Positions 47,217 through 52,449 of a stretch of DNA of 52,449 nucleotides are shown here, piece by piece. Each line of letters opens with the position of its first letter. Positions within the stretch are counted from its first letter, which is position 1. A program made the translations under genes and the position numbers. The notes beneath the pieces are model-generated. The model did no database searches and was not told the DNA's origin. It saw only the letters and a program-made list of their open reading frames with translations. Origin of the DNA: Salinivenus lutea (GTDB lineage Bacteria > Bacteroidota > Rhodothermia > Rhodothermales > Salinibacteraceae). Location of the stretch: positions 1 to 52,449 of the forward strand of contig NCRC01000026.1 of NCBI GenBank assembly GCA_002894685.1, read 5' to 3'.

Positions 47217-48518
47217 GTGTCACAAGAGGCGCTTAGCAACTTTTTAGACCAGAGCACCCAATCGGACGGGACATCGAATGGAATGTCCTCCCGGCCACCG
47301 GGGGCTGTGGCCCTGAAGGACATCACCTCGATGATTGTGGACTCGATGCCCGATTCGTGCCGCGGCCAGCGCCGGTTCCAGTACTTGGCCGAGCAGACCG
47401 ATCAATTGTCGCCCGAGAAAAGCACATCCCTCCGCACGCTGGCGGAGCGCTTCATCCGCCGGACCCTGGAGCTGGACGCCAGCGACATGGATCTCGGGGG
47501 CCGCGCCTGCGACGGCAACGTGTGGTACCGTGTCGACGGGGAGAAGCGGCGGGAAGAAGAGTTCGGGACGTACGACCCACTGGAGACGGATATTTTGGTC
47601 TTTAATCTTCTGAACGACAAGCAGACCCGCCAGCTGCTCGACAAGGGGGCGACGGACTTCTCCTATCGGCTGGAGGTCGAGGAGAGCGACCGGCCCCGCC
47701 GCTTCCGCGCCACGGCGTACTCGGACTACGACCACGCCGCCCTCAACATGCGCGCCATCTCGGACGAGATTTTTCCGCTGGACACCCTGGGCTTCCACCC
47801 GAAGATCCAGAAGGGCATGATGTTCAGGCACGTGCGGGACGGCCTCACGCTCATCACCGGGGTCACGGGCTCCGGAAAGAGCACGACGCTGGACGCCATC
47901 ATTGACGCCAACAACGAGGACTACCCGGGGCACATTGTCGTCATCGCCGATCCCATCGAGTACATGCACGAGCCGAAGGAGTCGATCGTGCGGCACCGGG
48001 AGGTGGGCAAGGACGTCGTGAGCTTCAAGGACGGCATCACGCAGGCCCTGCGCCAGGACCCCGACATTGTGGTGATTGGGGAGATGCGGGACCCGGAAAC
48101 GATCCAGGCGGCCCTCGAGGTGACGGACTCCGGCCACAAGGTCTTCTCCACCCTCCACACGTCCTCGGCCATGGAAACGATCGACCGCATCGTGGCCGAG
48201 GTGCCCACCGACGAACAGGAGCGCGTGCGCCACCGCCTGGCCGATGTGCTCCGCTGCGTCGTGTCCCAGAAGCTGTTGCCGAAAATCGGAGGCGGGCGGC
48301 AGCTTGCGAAAGAGGTCCTGTGGGTCGACGCCTCGGCCCGGGCCGCCATCAAAAACGACAATGTGGGAGAGGTCTACCAGATGATGTGGCAGGGCGGAAA
48401 GCAGGGCCAGACCACCCTCGAACAGGACCTCTACAAACTGGTGCGGAAGCGCAAAATTGAGCCGGAGACGGCGATGGACTACGCGAATAACAAAAAGCGT
48501 CTCCGGCGCCTCATGTAG
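47217..48518 (+). CDS. pilT: Type IV pilus retraction ATPase PilT
   Basis: This 433-residue ATPase is longer than typical PilT (about 345) owing to an N-terminal extension of about 60 residues. The core has Walker A GVTGSGKSTT (215-224), the Asp box (VIADPIEYMHE), Walker B VVIGEMRDPETIQAALEV and the His box STLHTSSAMETIDRI. The C-terminal SARAAIKNDNVGEVYQMM matches the AIRNLIRE retraction motif region. No zinc cysteines are present, which separates it from PilB. It starts with GTG 47217 and lies 122 bases after the minor pilin. Confidence 0.93.
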   Translation: MSQEALSNFLDQSTQSDGTSNGMSSRPPGAVALKDITSMIVDSMPDSCRGQRRFQYLAEQTDQLSPEKSTSLRTLAERFIRRTLELDASDMDLGGRACDGNVWYRVDGEKRREEEFGTYDPLETDILVFNLLNDKQTRQLLDKGATDFSYRLEVEESDRPRRFRATAYSDYDHAALNMRAISDEIFPLDTLGFHPKIQKGMMFRHVRDGLTLITGVTGSGKSTTLDAIIDANNEDYPGHIVVIADPIEYMHEPKESIVRHREVGKDVVSFKDGITQALRQDPDIVVIGEMRDPETIQAALEVTDSGHKVFSTLHTSSAMETIDRIVAEVPTDEQERVRHRLADVLRCVVSQKLLPKIGGGRQLAKEVLWVDASARAAIKNDNVGEVYQMMWQGGKQGQTTLEQDLYKLVRKRKIEPETAMDYANNKKRLRRLM

Positions 48519-48570
48519 AGCGAGACTTGATTCCGCGGCGTCGTTCGCCGAGATTCATGCCATCGGAGCG

Positions 48571-48607
48571 CCCCCACCGGGACTGTCGTCCGCTCCCCCC
48601 ACCGGGA
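48571..48607. repeat. Short direct repeat upstream of pilM-N
   Basis: CCCCCACCGGGA occurs at 48571-48582 and again at 48596-48607. A rare AT-rich run, GTTAACTTTATACC (near 48616-48629), follows just before the gene start and could be a promoter -10 region. Confidence 0.4.
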
Positions 48608-48641
48608 ACTCGTCTGTTAACTTTATACCACCCCCGTTTGG

Positions 48642-50327
48642 ATGAGCACGTACGCACTCGGCGTCATGGTGTCGGCGTCTACCCTTCACGCTGTGCTGCT
48701 GGAACGCACAGAGGAGGAGACCGTCGTGCGGTTCCAGCGAAGCCGATCGCGGGGCGGGATGGAGGCGACCGATCTGCCCTTCGACGAGCCGGAAGAGTCG
48801 ACGCCGGGGATCGACGACGAGCCGGACGACGTGACGATTGAGTTTGGGGACTCGGGGGGTGGGGACGATCTGTTCCTGGGAGGGGAGTTCGATGAGTTTG
48901 AGGACGAAGGCGATGACTTTGCCGCGGACCCCCAGCCGGAGACCTGGAACTTCCGGTCGGCCCTCGACGACCTGTTGGAGGAGTGTGAGGACCGAGGGTA
49001 CGAAGATCCGGAGGTGGCATTTTGTACGTCCGCCTCCGACGTGGACGAGGTGGAGCTCCGCCTCCCGGCGGACGAGAGCGGGCCGGCGGGCGAGGAGGGC
49101 TCCACCGGCCTCCCGCTGCCGGCATCCCGATCGACTCTCCTGGGGATGCTGGAGGAGCAGTACGACGGCGCGGTGGAGAAGGAGCGGGTGGGGTTCGTGC
49201 CGATGCACCGCACCGGAGACGGTCGGCAGCGGGTCCTGGCGCTCATTGCACGGCCCGGCGGCTCGGTGATCTCCACGTTGTCGGAGATGCAGGAGCAGAC
49301 GCTCGCCCGCAGTCCGCGCGCCCGGTTCCTCGACACCGAGGTGCCGCTGTATCTGGGCCTCGCCCGGTCGGCGCTCCAGCTGCCGCCCGACACGGCCGAG
49401 AAGACGATTCTGGTCCGGGCGGGCACCGACAACACGCTCGTGCTCTTTATGGAGGGCAATACGCTGCGTCAGGCCGAGCAGCTGCCGGAGTTGACGGTTG
49501 AGGACCCGGCGGAGACCATTTGTAGTCGCGTGCTGCTGCTGCAGGACGAGTACGGGATGGGCGACGTGCAGCACCTGCTCCTCGCCGCGGAGGACAGCGA
49601 GGAGATGCTTGCCGACGCCTTCAAGTCGTACTTTGCGAGCTCGAAGGTTCGTCTTCTCCGCACCCACCTCCCGAACGGGGAGGCGGAGTCGAGCCAGTAC
49701 CTCGCGGCCACCGGGGCGGCGCTCCGTCAGATTGACGACCCGGATTTTGGGCCGTCGTTCCAGGACGTGGACCTGCTGCCCGCGACGTGTCGGCCCAGCC
49801 CGTTCCGAATTCCGGTGGGCTGGTCGGTGCCCGTGCTGCTGGTGCTGCTGGGCGTGACCACCCTCGGCTTCGTGTGGTACTACGTCGCGAACGCCAATGC
49901 CATCAGCGAGCGGCGCACGCAACTGCGCACGCTGGAGCGGGAGGTGGCGCAGGCCGACCCCGAGGCCCTGGAGCGGCGCATCGACAGCCTGGAGTCCGCG
50001 GCCGCCCAGTACGCACAGGGGCTCAATGTGCTCGATGAGCTCCTCCAGGGCAGCAACAAGTGGAGCAAAGGCCTGGCCACCGTGACCGGACGGATGAACA
50101 GCGTGCAGGGGGTGTCGATTGCGGAGTGGAGCCCGGCCGGGGACGCACGGGTCACCGTGTCGGGCCGGGCCTCCTCGCGCCCCCGCGTCGTCCGCCTCGC
50201 ACAGGAGCTGGGGGCGGACATCAACAGCCTCACGTTCACGGAGGTGCGGGACGCCTCGCTCTACGACTTCAACGTGACGGTGCCGCTCGACACCACCAAG
50301 CCGGCGGCGATTGAGTACTGGCGCTAG
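48642..50327 (+). CDS. PilM-PilN fusion protein (frame ends in an amber codon followed by in-frame SPOR domain)
   Basis: This 561-residue protein joins a PilM-like actin-fold part and a PilN-like part. Residues 1-380 contain a degenerate actin-like domain (YALGVMVSASTLHAVLLE; TILVRAGTDNTLVLFMEG) with acidic insertions. A transmembrane helix lies at about 390-412 (VPVLLVLLGVTTLGFVWYY), then a coiled coil (~415-450) and a PilN-type domain (LDELLQGSNKWSKGLATVTG, VTVSGRASSRPRVVRLAQEL). The M-N complex links the cytoplasmic motor platform with PilO/P in the periplasm. The frame ends EYWR-TAG at 50325-50327, and remains open beyond it for 157 codons (see the SPOR entry). A start at ATG 48642 follows a promoter-like AT-rich patch. 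Confidence 0.82.
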   Translation: MSTYALGVMVSASTLHAVLLERTEEETVVRFQRSRSRGGMEATDLPFDEPEESTPGIDDEPDDVTIEFGDSGGGDDLFLGGEFDEFEDEGDDFAADPQPETWNFRSALDDLLEECEDRGYEDPEVAFCTSASDVDEVELRLPADESGPAGEEGSTGLPLPASRSTLLGMLEEQYDGAVEKERVGFVPMHRTGDGRQRVLALIARPGGSVISTLSEMQEQTLARSPRARFLDTEVPLYLGLARSALQLPPDTAEKTILVRAGTDNTLVLFMEGNTLRQAEQLPELTVEDPAETICSRVLLLQDEYGMGDVQHLLLAAEDSEEMLADAFKSYFASSKVRLLRTHLPNGEAESSQYLAATGAALRQIDDPDFGPSFQDVDLLPATCRPSPFRIPVGWSVPVLLVLLGVTTLGFVWYYVANANAISERRTQLRTLEREVAQADPEALERRIDSLESAAAQYAQGLNVLDELLQGSNKWSKGLATVTGRMNSVQGVSIAEWSPAGDARVTVSGRASSRPRVVRLAQELGADINSLTFTEVRDASLYDFNVTVPLDTTKPAAIEYWR

Positions 50328-50513
50328 CAGCGGCTGACGGCGGCCACCGCGGGGAGCACCGAGGCGCCATCCGCCCAATCGGCCCAACCGCGTGCCGAGT
50401 CGACTGAGCGGGCGGGGGCCGTCGGAGAAGAGGCGGGAGGGGAGGCCGCGTCGGCGTCCGCGTCCGCCACGCCTGCTTCCGCCGATACGCAGTCGACCCC
50501 CCCCTTCTGGACG

Positions 50514-50801
50514 GTGGTGGCGGCCTCTCTGGCGCGCCGAGACTCGGCGATGAGTGCCCACGCCCGGGTTCGGTCCACCCTGTCGGGACGCTCCCACGAC
50601 GTCACGATCTGCCATGCCCCCGAAAATCGGTGGTATCGTGTGTCGGTGGGGGCCTTCTCGTCCTTCGACGACGCCCTGGCGGCCCTCAAGGACATGCAGC
50701 CGGATTTGCCCGAGGGGGCGTGGATCCACGAGTGCACGGCCGTCCCCATACGCCCCGCTGCGGCGTCCACTGACCCGTCCGTGGACGCCTCCCGCGGATA
50801 G
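50514..50801 (+). CDS. SPOR-domain segment in frame with and downstream of pilM-N
   Basis: From GTG 50514 the frame encodes 95 residues containing most of a SPOR domain, a peptidoglycan-binding fold for denuded glycans: the TVVAASLARRDSAMSAHARV strand-helix and NRWYRVSVGAFSSFDDALAALKDM, matching the family pattern of two (Y/W)xVxVG(S/A)F-like repeats. The preceding 62 codons (50328-50513) are also open, in the same frame as pilM-N, Ala/Ser-rich like a linker, and have no ATG, GTG or TTG; the first usable start (GTG 50514) lies inside the SPOR fold and would cut its first strand (FWT). Thus the more natural protein is PilM-PilN-linker-SPOR interrupted by a single TAG. Alternatives are reinitiation at 50514 or a sequencing error. 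Confidence 0.65.
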   Translation: MVAASLARRDSAMSAHARVRSTLSGRSHDVTICHAPENRWYRVSVGAFSSFDDALAALKDMQPDLPEGAWIHECTAVPIRPAAASTDPSVDASRG

Positions 50802-50865
50802 CGTCCCCCCGCTCGTCCTCGCCGCATTCTCTGCCCGTTTTCTCACCGGTACCGCCCGGCCCATC

Positions 50866-51855
50866 ATGTTCAACATTGGGACCAACCAGATCCTGTTGCT
50901 TTCGTGTCTGGTCCTCGTGATGGGGGCCGGCGCGTACGTCACGTATTTCCATCAGCAAAACATCCTCGAGTCGCTGGACCAGCAGATTGAGGAGACGCAG
51001 CAGGAGAAGGAGCGCATCCAGACCCTGCAGACCGACCTGACCGACGCCGAGGAGACCCTGGAGTCGACCCGCGAGCGCTGGGAGACGCGCTATAAGATCG
51101 TTCCCGAACACGTTTCGTCGCCGATGGTGATGGGCTACCTCACCGAACTCACACAAACGGGGTTCCAGACGTTTAACGTGGCCGCCTCGGGAACGGAGGA
51201 GCAAAGCGGATACAGCTCCTACACGGTGACGGCGGAGGGAGAAGCCTACTTTTCCAGTCTGTACCGCTTCGTCTGGACGATTGAGAACAACCGGCCCTTC
51301 TATCGGGTCCGGGACCTGAATCTGAACTACCTGGAAGAGCGGAGCACGGACGAGGAAACGGGACGCACGTCGATGGACGTGCTCGTGTCGTTTCAGATGG
51401 ACCTGGAGGCCATTCACGGGCTCGCGGGGGGAACGGAGCGGGGGGAGGCGACCGACGAGCGCCAATTGCAGGCGCTCCCGGTGGCCCAGAGCAGCCCGTC
51501 CCCGCCGCTTCCCGCGCGGGTGGTGCCCAATCCGGACCCCGAGATCAACCCGTTCTATCCGCTCGTCTTTGAGGAGGTGCCGCCCAACGAGTACGACCGC
51601 CTGAACGTGGAGTCGGCCCGGCTCATCTCCATCGTTGACGGGCAGGCCGTCTTCGAAACCGGCGGCGGCATTGAGCGGGTGGGCGAGGGCGATCGCGTGT
51701 ACCTCGGCCGCATTACCGAGGTGGACGCGTCGGAGGGCACGGTCGTGGCGCGGCTCAACCGGGGCGGCATCGTCGATGAGGTCGAACTCAGCCTCAACCC
51801 CCAAAGTCCACTCCAGCAGGTGCCCGGCGAGCGTGCATCCGACCCGGAGCGATAA
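50866..51855 (+). CDS. PilO-PilP fusion protein
   Basis: Residues 1-190 resemble PilO: an N-terminal membrane helix (NQILLLSCLVLVMGAGAYVTYF), a coiled coil (QQNILESLDQQIEETQQEKERIQTLQ, in pieces) and a ferredoxin-like domain (GYLTELTQTGFQTFNVAASG; YFSSLYRFVWTIENNRPFYRVRDLNL). After a Pro/Ser-rich linker (about 195-220) comes a PilP/GspC-type beta-sandwich (VESARLISIVDGQAVFETGGGIERVGEGDRVYLGRITEVDASEGTVV, in pieces), which contacts the secretin. Usually these are two genes. It starts at ATG 50866; its stop overlaps the start of the secretin gene (TAATG). Confidence 0.85.
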   Translation: MFNIGTNQILLLSCLVLVMGAGAYVTYFHQQNILESLDQQIEETQQEKERIQTLQTDLTDAEETLESTRERWETRYKIVPEHVSSPMVMGYLTELTQTGFQTFNVAASGTEEQSGYSSYTVTAEGEAYFSSLYRFVWTIENNRPFYRVRDLNLNYLEERSTDEETGRTSMDVLVSFQMDLEAIHGLAGGTERGEATDERQLQALPVAQSSPSPPLPARVVPNPDPEINPFYPLVFEEVPPNEYDRLNVESARLISIVDGQAVFETGGGIERVGEGDRVYLGRITEVDASEGTVVARLNRGGIVDEVELSLNPQSPLQQVPGERASDPER

Positions 51856-52449
51856 TGCATCCTTTCTTTCAAAGCCCCCACCGAGTGTTGTTCGTGCCTA
51901 TGCGACGTGTTACGACCCCGTTTCTCCTCACGCTCACCCTGTCTGCCCTGCTTTTGGTGGGGGGCGTGGCGCCGGCGCAGGCCCAGGACCGACCGGACCG
52001 CCGCGTAACGCAGACCAACATCCCGCCGGAGCAGCTGGTGTCGTTCCAGCCGGATACCCCCTTCAACCAGTTCCTGGAGCTCATTAACCCGGTGTTTGAG
52101 AAGGTGGCGGGAAAGACGGTGGTGGACCCACAGGATCGGACCATGCCGATCGGGGTCTCCATCTCCGGCATGCACTACCTGGATGCCCTGGAGCAGGTGC
52201 TTGAGGCCAACGGCCTTACGTACGAGGAGACGCAGACGGCCTTTCTTGTCCGGGAGCCCGAGCAAGAGTCCCAGGCCGCTCAGGCTCCGCAGGGAGAGGA
52301 AGGGGAAGTGCTGGCGACCCTCGGCACCCGGGAGATCCGGATCAACGCGATCCTGTTCAACATGAACCTCACCAAGATCCGGGACCTGGGGCTCCGATGG
52401 AGTGAGCTCTTTCCCTCCTTTCAGCAAGGAGGCGGCCAGGGGGGCGGGG
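51855..52449 (+). CDS. pilQ: Type IV pilus secretin PilQ, 5' part (cut by window end)
   Basis: This open frame has no stop before the window edge. It overlaps the PilO-PilP stop (TAATG at 51853-51857). A second ATG at 51900 begins a clear Sec signal peptide (MRRVTTPFLLTLTLSALLLV, cleavage near PAQAQ). After it come a secretin N0-like segment (FNQFLELINPVFEKVAGKTVV; GVSISGMHYLDALEQVLEANGLTYEE) and the beginning of a secretin repeat region (EIRINAILFNMNLTKIRDLGLRW). The outer-membrane ring is expected beyond the window. The order pilM-N, pilO-P, pilQ is the standard pilMNOPQ operon order. Confidence 0.85.
   Translation, partial: MHPFFQSPHRVLFVPMRRVTTPFLLTLTLSALLLVGGVAPAQAQDRPDRRVTQTNIPPEQLVSFQPDTPFNQFLELINPVFEKVAGKTVVDPQDRTMPIGVSISGMHYLDALEQVLEANGLTYEETQTAFLVREPEQESQAAQAPQGEEGEVLATLGTREIRINAILFNMNLTKIRDLGLRWSELFPSFQQGGGQGGG

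Follow-up and report, generated by a model that had tools for sequence, protein, structure and literature searches.

A SPOR domain behind an in-frame TAG in the fused pilM-pilN gene of Salinivenus lutea, and the attachment of SPOR domains to pilus genes across its class

In the parts of the literature covered here, PilM and PilN of the pilus machine are likened to the division proteins FtsA and FtsN (PMC7613929), and FtsN carries a SPOR domain (PMC6895207). The same sources describe several contacts between secretin machines and the cell wall. In Pseudomonas aeruginosa, the peptidoglycan contacts made by the AMIN domain of PilQ and the LysM domain of FimV are needed for the placement of the pilus machine (PMC5285504), TsaP is a wall-binding module of the pilus machine (PMC9239104), and LspD of Legionella has a SPOR domain at the N-terminus of a type II secretion secretin (PMC9239104, PMC6617341). 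Within the passages covered, the pilus machines with a known wall anchor belong to proteobacteria and myxobacteria and use AMIN or LysM domains. A search of open-access PMC text returned, in the passages retrieved, no description of a SPOR domain on PilN or on the PilQ of a type IV pilus.

This study analyzed a stretch of 52,449 nucleotides from Salinivenus lutea (contig NCRC01000026.1, forward strand), hereafter the window, which closes with a row of pilus genes on the plus strand. The first gene of the row encodes a T2SSE-family, PilT/PilB-like ATPase (47217-48518; Pfam T2SSE, E 2e-38). It is followed by pilMN, which encodes a fused PilM-PilN of 561 aa and ends at a TAG (48642-50327), by a pilO-pilP-like gene with an ATG at 50866 (50866-51855), and by the start of the secretin gene pilQ, whose open frame (51855-52449) covers the N-terminus and runs off the contig. 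The pilO-pilP-like gene was named from its open frame and its position in the row, and its sole Pfam match was a weak one to DivIC, below the cut-off. The naming of pilQ relies on Pfam Secretin, which was detected in 10 of 10 homologues from other loci. The window contig ends inside pilQ at position 52449, and the matching contig of a congener that we took as Salinivenus iranica CB7 (G012; placed by NCBI in Rhodothermales, Rhodothermia) ends inside pilQ too, its base 1 lying about 1.7 kb beyond pilMN; this shared break perhaps reflects a repeat in common with a paralogous pilQ.

The assignment of PilN, and more tentatively that of PilM, came through homologues. A profile built from 31 of them matched a PDB chain named PilN (3jc8, which we take to be the pilus machine of M. 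xanthus) at E 7.3e-10. At E up to 0.01, Pfam PilN was found in 9 of the 31 homologues and the NCBIfam Amuc_1101 PilM-like family in 6, and the window protein alone matched neither Pfam PilN nor the NCBIfam PilM family at E 0.01. AlphaFold models, obtained from alignments of 2 and 3 sequences, had mean pLDDT values of 48.0 and 36.7 and were too poor for use. Single-frame PilMN-like ORFs of approximately 510-590 aa recur through the class and the phylum. A preliminary description of this DNA, made from its letters and open reading frames, had singled out a PilMN-SPOR fusion; the fusion of PilM with PilN is ordinary in the phylum, and it is the SPOR tail that is unusual.

The pilMN gene starts at ATG 48642 and reaches its TAG at 50325-50327, beyond which the same frame continues for 157 sense codons up to a second TAG (50799-50801), the stop of the full-length frame and a TAG in G012 as well. 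According to the translation and the ORF list, the tail opens with an Ala/Ser/Glu-rich linker without an in-frame ATG, GTG, or TTG (50328-50501). It continues with a SPOR domain (50502-50699), which matched Pfam PF05036 with 29.6 bits against a gathering cut-off of 21 (E 9.1e-7; E 3.9e-6 in a whole-genome search). These results bear out the preliminary description, which had reported the stop, the 157 open codons, and the lack of a start before a GTG in the SPOR fold, and had proposed searching 50328-50801 with the SPOR profile. The length of the frame is weak evidence by itself, because the opposite strand is also open over the same stretch (795 aa, 48555-50942). Nevertheless, the tail goes beyond chance, because it combines the SPOR match with a homologous frame that runs through the junction in 7 of the 12 other genomes of the genus.

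The SPOR part could in principle be translated separately by reinitiation, since the GTG at 50514 opens a mechanical ORF of 95 aa (50514-50801). However, 186 bases separate the stop from this first start among ATG, GTG, and TTG, which falls four codons into the Pfam match, and its product would miss the beginning of the domain. Furthermore, no signal peptide was seen by eye, and a separate gene was present at this place in none of the seven tail-bearing congeners. We regard reinitiation as extremely improbable.

The genus comparison covered 13 genomes, including that of the window (G000). PilMN with a tail was identified in eight of them (the window's own, G012, G011, G004, G002, G010, G006, and G003) and PilMN without SPOR in two (G001 and G007), whereas three showed no PilMN match (G008, G009, and G005, the last with a match to the SPOR region only). 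In all seven tail-bearing congeners, PilN and SPOR lie in one frame with no stop at the junction. This finding agrees with the preliminary proposal of a single PilM-PilN-SPOR protein, and the arrangement that had been named as speaking against it, a separate gene starting before the linker, was absent at the locus in these genomes. Elsewhere in its sequence, the gene of G003 breaks near codon 90, where a frameshift or an assembly error leaves two overlapping frames (L043, 8414-10465 and 10215-10646). In G001 and G007, inspection of the other frames by eye gave no sign that a frameshift conceals a SPOR domain after the tail-less PilMN.

The codon at the position of the TAG is GAG in six of the seven tail-bearing congeners and AAA in G004, and the SPOR-less G001 likewise has GAG. 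The TAG is thus one base away from a Glu codon and, among the genomes compared, private to that of the window. The preliminary description had suggested a CAG-to-TAG transition; because the relatives have GAG or AAA instead, the nearest route is a G-to-T transversion. A frame that is intact in close relatives and a stop that is private to one genome are what a recent nonsense allele leaves behind, and such an allele is the most likely nature of the TAG, followed by an error in the consensus sequence. The preliminary description had listed pseudogene formation and sequencing error among its possibilities. A private TAG would fit both.

We further compared the gene with that of G012, whose protein is 97% identical to that of the window. 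The 72-codon SPOR core differed by 1 amino-acid change and 3 silent changes, the linker by 4 amino-acid and 4 silent changes plus a two-codon gap, and the PilMN body by 9 amino-acid and 31 silent changes. The sole amino-acid change in the SPOR core, E/K at codon 661, seems to have occurred in G012. Such a lack of decay is compatible with a very young allele, with a sequence error, or with a tail that is still in use. Across three intact-tail pairs drawn from five genomes, dN/dS was 0.18-0.28 in the SPOR core and 0.09-0.16 in the body, and because of the former value the intact tails look kept by selection.

The tail would remain in use if some ribosomes passed the TAG, so that the gene yielded both a short PilMN and a long PilMN-SPOR. 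The intact tail is compatible with such readthrough, as is the codon after the TAG, CAG, which agrees in part with the beginning of a known leaky stop context. However, the four codons past the TAG are identical in G012, which has no stop there, and the context has therefore not evolved for readthrough. The genome of the window also has RF1. Rfam identified 48 tRNA loci in it, and none of the 46 that ARAGORN could read has a CUA anticodon, the other two being tRNA-like by Rfam. One tRNA found by Rfam and unread by ARAGORN (L108, G000:C2:94676-94785) carries approximately 45 extra bases in the anticodon arm, possibly an intron or the mark of a broken copy. TAG is, moreover, a common terminator. 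Within 520,450 bases of the genome, window included, 216 non-overlapping frames of at least 300 codons were counted, and 70 of the 205 with the stop in view end with TAG. With RF1 present, no suppressor tRNA among the loci read, and TAG in frequent use, the results for the genome of the window were negative for recoding. A search for stop-split genes in the same 520,450 bases yielded 20 candidates, none with a start-free run of more than 31 codons, although the filter missed pilMN as well and is thus a poor guide to the frequency of such genes. Readthrough, which the preliminary description had entertained together with reinitiation, gained no more support than the latter and is in our judgment very improbable.

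If the TAG were instead an error in the consensus sequence, the strain would make a full PilM-PilN-SPOR like its relatives. This explanation is favored by the sequence after the TAG, which is intact and nearly identical to that of G012, and by the state of the assembly, a draft of 76 contigs in which the TAG lies approximately 2.1 kb from a contig end. It is opposed by the change itself, which is one clean base substitution, by the 99.59% completeness at which the genome is rated, and by the adjacent ATPase, pilOP, and partial pilQ frames, all of which are free of stops. A comparison of the 22-kb contig of G012 with the window flagged the pilMN TAG together with stops in two further ORFs, which may be wrong-frame readings; neither the ATPase nor pilOP was covered in its proper frame by this comparison, and a separate check of the window found both frames open. 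We rate a consensus error slightly higher than we otherwise would, because the TAG is near a contig end and the G012 comparison lends no support to an otherwise clean row, but we still hold it to be unlikely.

To place the fused tail in a wider context, we examined pilus loci across the class, in which SPOR domains are joined to pilus genes in three ways: at the end of PilN, at the C-terminus of PilQ, and in a separate PKD-SPOR gene. Of 20 loci taken, ten came from one genus (g60) of family f16, which belongs to the same class and is presumably Balneolaceae. They were chosen for open frames of at least 731 codons and represent 10 of the 13 such g60 frames among the matches listed. In each of the ten, PilN is followed by a linker and a SPOR-like end, and other g60 genomes have short PilMN frames. 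When the fused tails were scanned alone, all 18 (the window, seven congeners, and the ten f16 loci) matched Pfam SPOR with E values no higher than 0.01. Two of these tails are weak: that of G002 scored 19.8 bits, below the cut-off of 21, in a whole-genome search, and that of L136 gave no SPOR match as a whole protein or with a home-made profile. A further 22 PilMN ORFs had no SPOR domain; their tails measure 9-62 aa, except for that of G001, which has 123 aa. A search of the PDB with the fused tails returned no solved SPOR structure and one chance match (E 0.87).

The second arrangement was found at 12 further f16 loci (L180, L181, L185-L187, L189, L192-L195, L198, and L199), where PilQ is long (616-673 codons) and its last part aligns as one family. 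Pfam SPOR was detected in 7 of these 12 C-termini at E up to 0.05, and L190 and L191 of the same family have a short PilQ without SPOR. The third arrangement occurs in the genome of the window itself. Its paralogous pilus locus (L058, G000:C24) consists of an ATPase, a tail-less PilMN, PilOP, and PilQ, directly followed on the minus strand by a gene with PKD and SPOR domains (L058 5217-6080). G025 (SPOR E 4.8e-7) and G202 (SPOR below the cut-off, E 0.0063) have a similar PKD gene at a distance of 1-2 kb past pilQ, and G027 has one two genes after pilOP (PF05036 E 7.5e-4). In G016, a gene with a Pfam PKD domain lies 1-2 kb beyond pilQ and matched SPOR by the home-made profile only (E 0.005).

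We then considered how often SPOR had been joined to PilN. In a tree of 57 PilMN bodies, which is unrooted and has some long branches, the PilN-SPOR label required two changes, and the PilQ-SPOR and separate-gene labels required one each, with 23 unlabelled rows omitted from the count. A common origin of both PilMN-SPOR groups was disfavored, the trees with one change making up 0% of 200 bootstrap trees. Outside their own group, the ten f16 tails all had their top score with L157, which is a stand-alone SPOR from G096 (31-51 bits). For five of the eight tails of the genus, the top-scoring partners were stand-alone SPORs from G002 (29-37 bits). For the window and G012 the partner was a PilQ tail (21-22 bits), the window tail having no clear affinity at 21 bits, and for one congener it was an f16 tail (26.9 bits). 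The stand-alone set comprised 12 SPORs from four genomes only. Between the two PilMN-SPOR groups, all 160 comparisons gave 5-27 bits. Two separate attachments of SPOR to PilN are the simplest reading, on an unrooted tree and with a short domain.

The Gln of the first strand of SPOR domains makes a key glycan contact in RlpA, according to the part of the source covered (PMC6895207). Matched by eye to SPORs that bear it, this position holds Val in every one of the 18 fused tails, and their glycan binding may therefore be weaker or different. The SPOR tail could accordingly be a protein-protein or steric module, or a functionless passenger, instead of a wall anchor; besides the Val, this view is favored by G001 and G007, two congeners that lack the tail. 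On the other hand, the Arg that we aligned by eye with R309/R285 does not vary among the 18 fused tails, the dN/dS of the SPOR core is well under 1 in the intact pairs, and the same kind of domain is joined to pilus genes in several ways. We consider a tail without an anchoring role decidedly unlikely, and we infer that the SPOR tail binds peptidoglycan and anchors the machine to it. The loss of AMIN from PilQ was also considered as a reason for the gain of SPOR and was rejected: AMIN was detected in none of the 10 PilQs tested, at SPOR-bearing and SPOR-less loci alike.

These findings suggest the following explanation. In the congeners, one gene would encode one chain comprising a cytoplasmic FtsA-like PilM, a membrane helix, a periplasmic PilN, a flexible linker, and SPOR. 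The SPOR tail would hold the PilMNOP alignment complex, and via it the secretin, to the glycan strands of peptidoglycan, and would thus do in one chain the job performed elsewhere by the AMIN domain of PilQ, FimV, and TsaP. In the genome of the window, a single substitution in a conserved Glu codon would have produced a TAG directly after the last conserved PilN residues, a point at which the SPOR-less PilMN proteins, with the short tails given above, also end. The strain would then produce a 561-aa PilMN that closely resembles the PilMN proteins elsewhere in the order that lack SPOR by nature, and no useful amount of the SPOR part. We consider this combination, a wall-holding PilM-PilN-SPOR in the congeners and a real private TAG allele that truncates it here, to be probable. 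Its architecture and conservation, the private TAG, and the absence of a start ahead of SPOR and of a CUA anticodon among the tRNAs read were observed; the topology, the glycan binding, the anchoring, and the allele being real and not a consensus error are its inferred parts.

A broader proposal is made tentatively, our confidence in it being a little short of even. A SPOR anchor may be a regular part of many pili of the class, attached anew to PilN in the genus and in a clade of f16, to PilQ in other f16 members, and in the form of a separate PKD-SPOR gene next to a paralogous locus. On this view, PilM-PilN-SPOR would correspond, in one chain, to FtsA-FtsN and would guide pilus machines to glycan that cell division leaves behind, and the strain of the window would be a natural tail-off mutant. 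The presence of SPOR domains on different parts of one machine suggests that another bacterial class anchors its pili to the wall in a different way, which would tie the placement of pili directly to the glycan that division produces. G000, with the TAG, and Salinivenus iranica CB7, without it, are nearly identical and provide a natural comparison.

Compared with the type IVa PilM-PilN of M. xanthus (3jc8), the locus is alike in its row of ATPase, pilMN, pilOP, and pilQ and in the PilN profile match, but here M and N form one chain with a C-terminal SPOR. The AMIN domain of PilQ, the LysM domain of FimV, and TsaP are, as far as the sources covered describe them, wall-binding modules of the same machine, although they have other folds and belong to other proteins. 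In the same sources, LspD of Legionella resembles the present case in having a SPOR domain built into a secretin machine; that domain is N-terminal on a type II secretin, whereas here it is C-terminal on PilN or PilQ. The FtsA-FtsN pair of the divisome, again as described in the passages covered, similarly combines an actin-like cytoplasmic partner with a bitopic protein, FtsN, that has a SPOR domain, but it consists of two proteins acting in cell division, whereas the congeners encode one chain in a pilus row. The parts of this locus are ordinary and their recurring arrangement is unusual, and the TAG itself looks like an ordinary private change or a sequence error.
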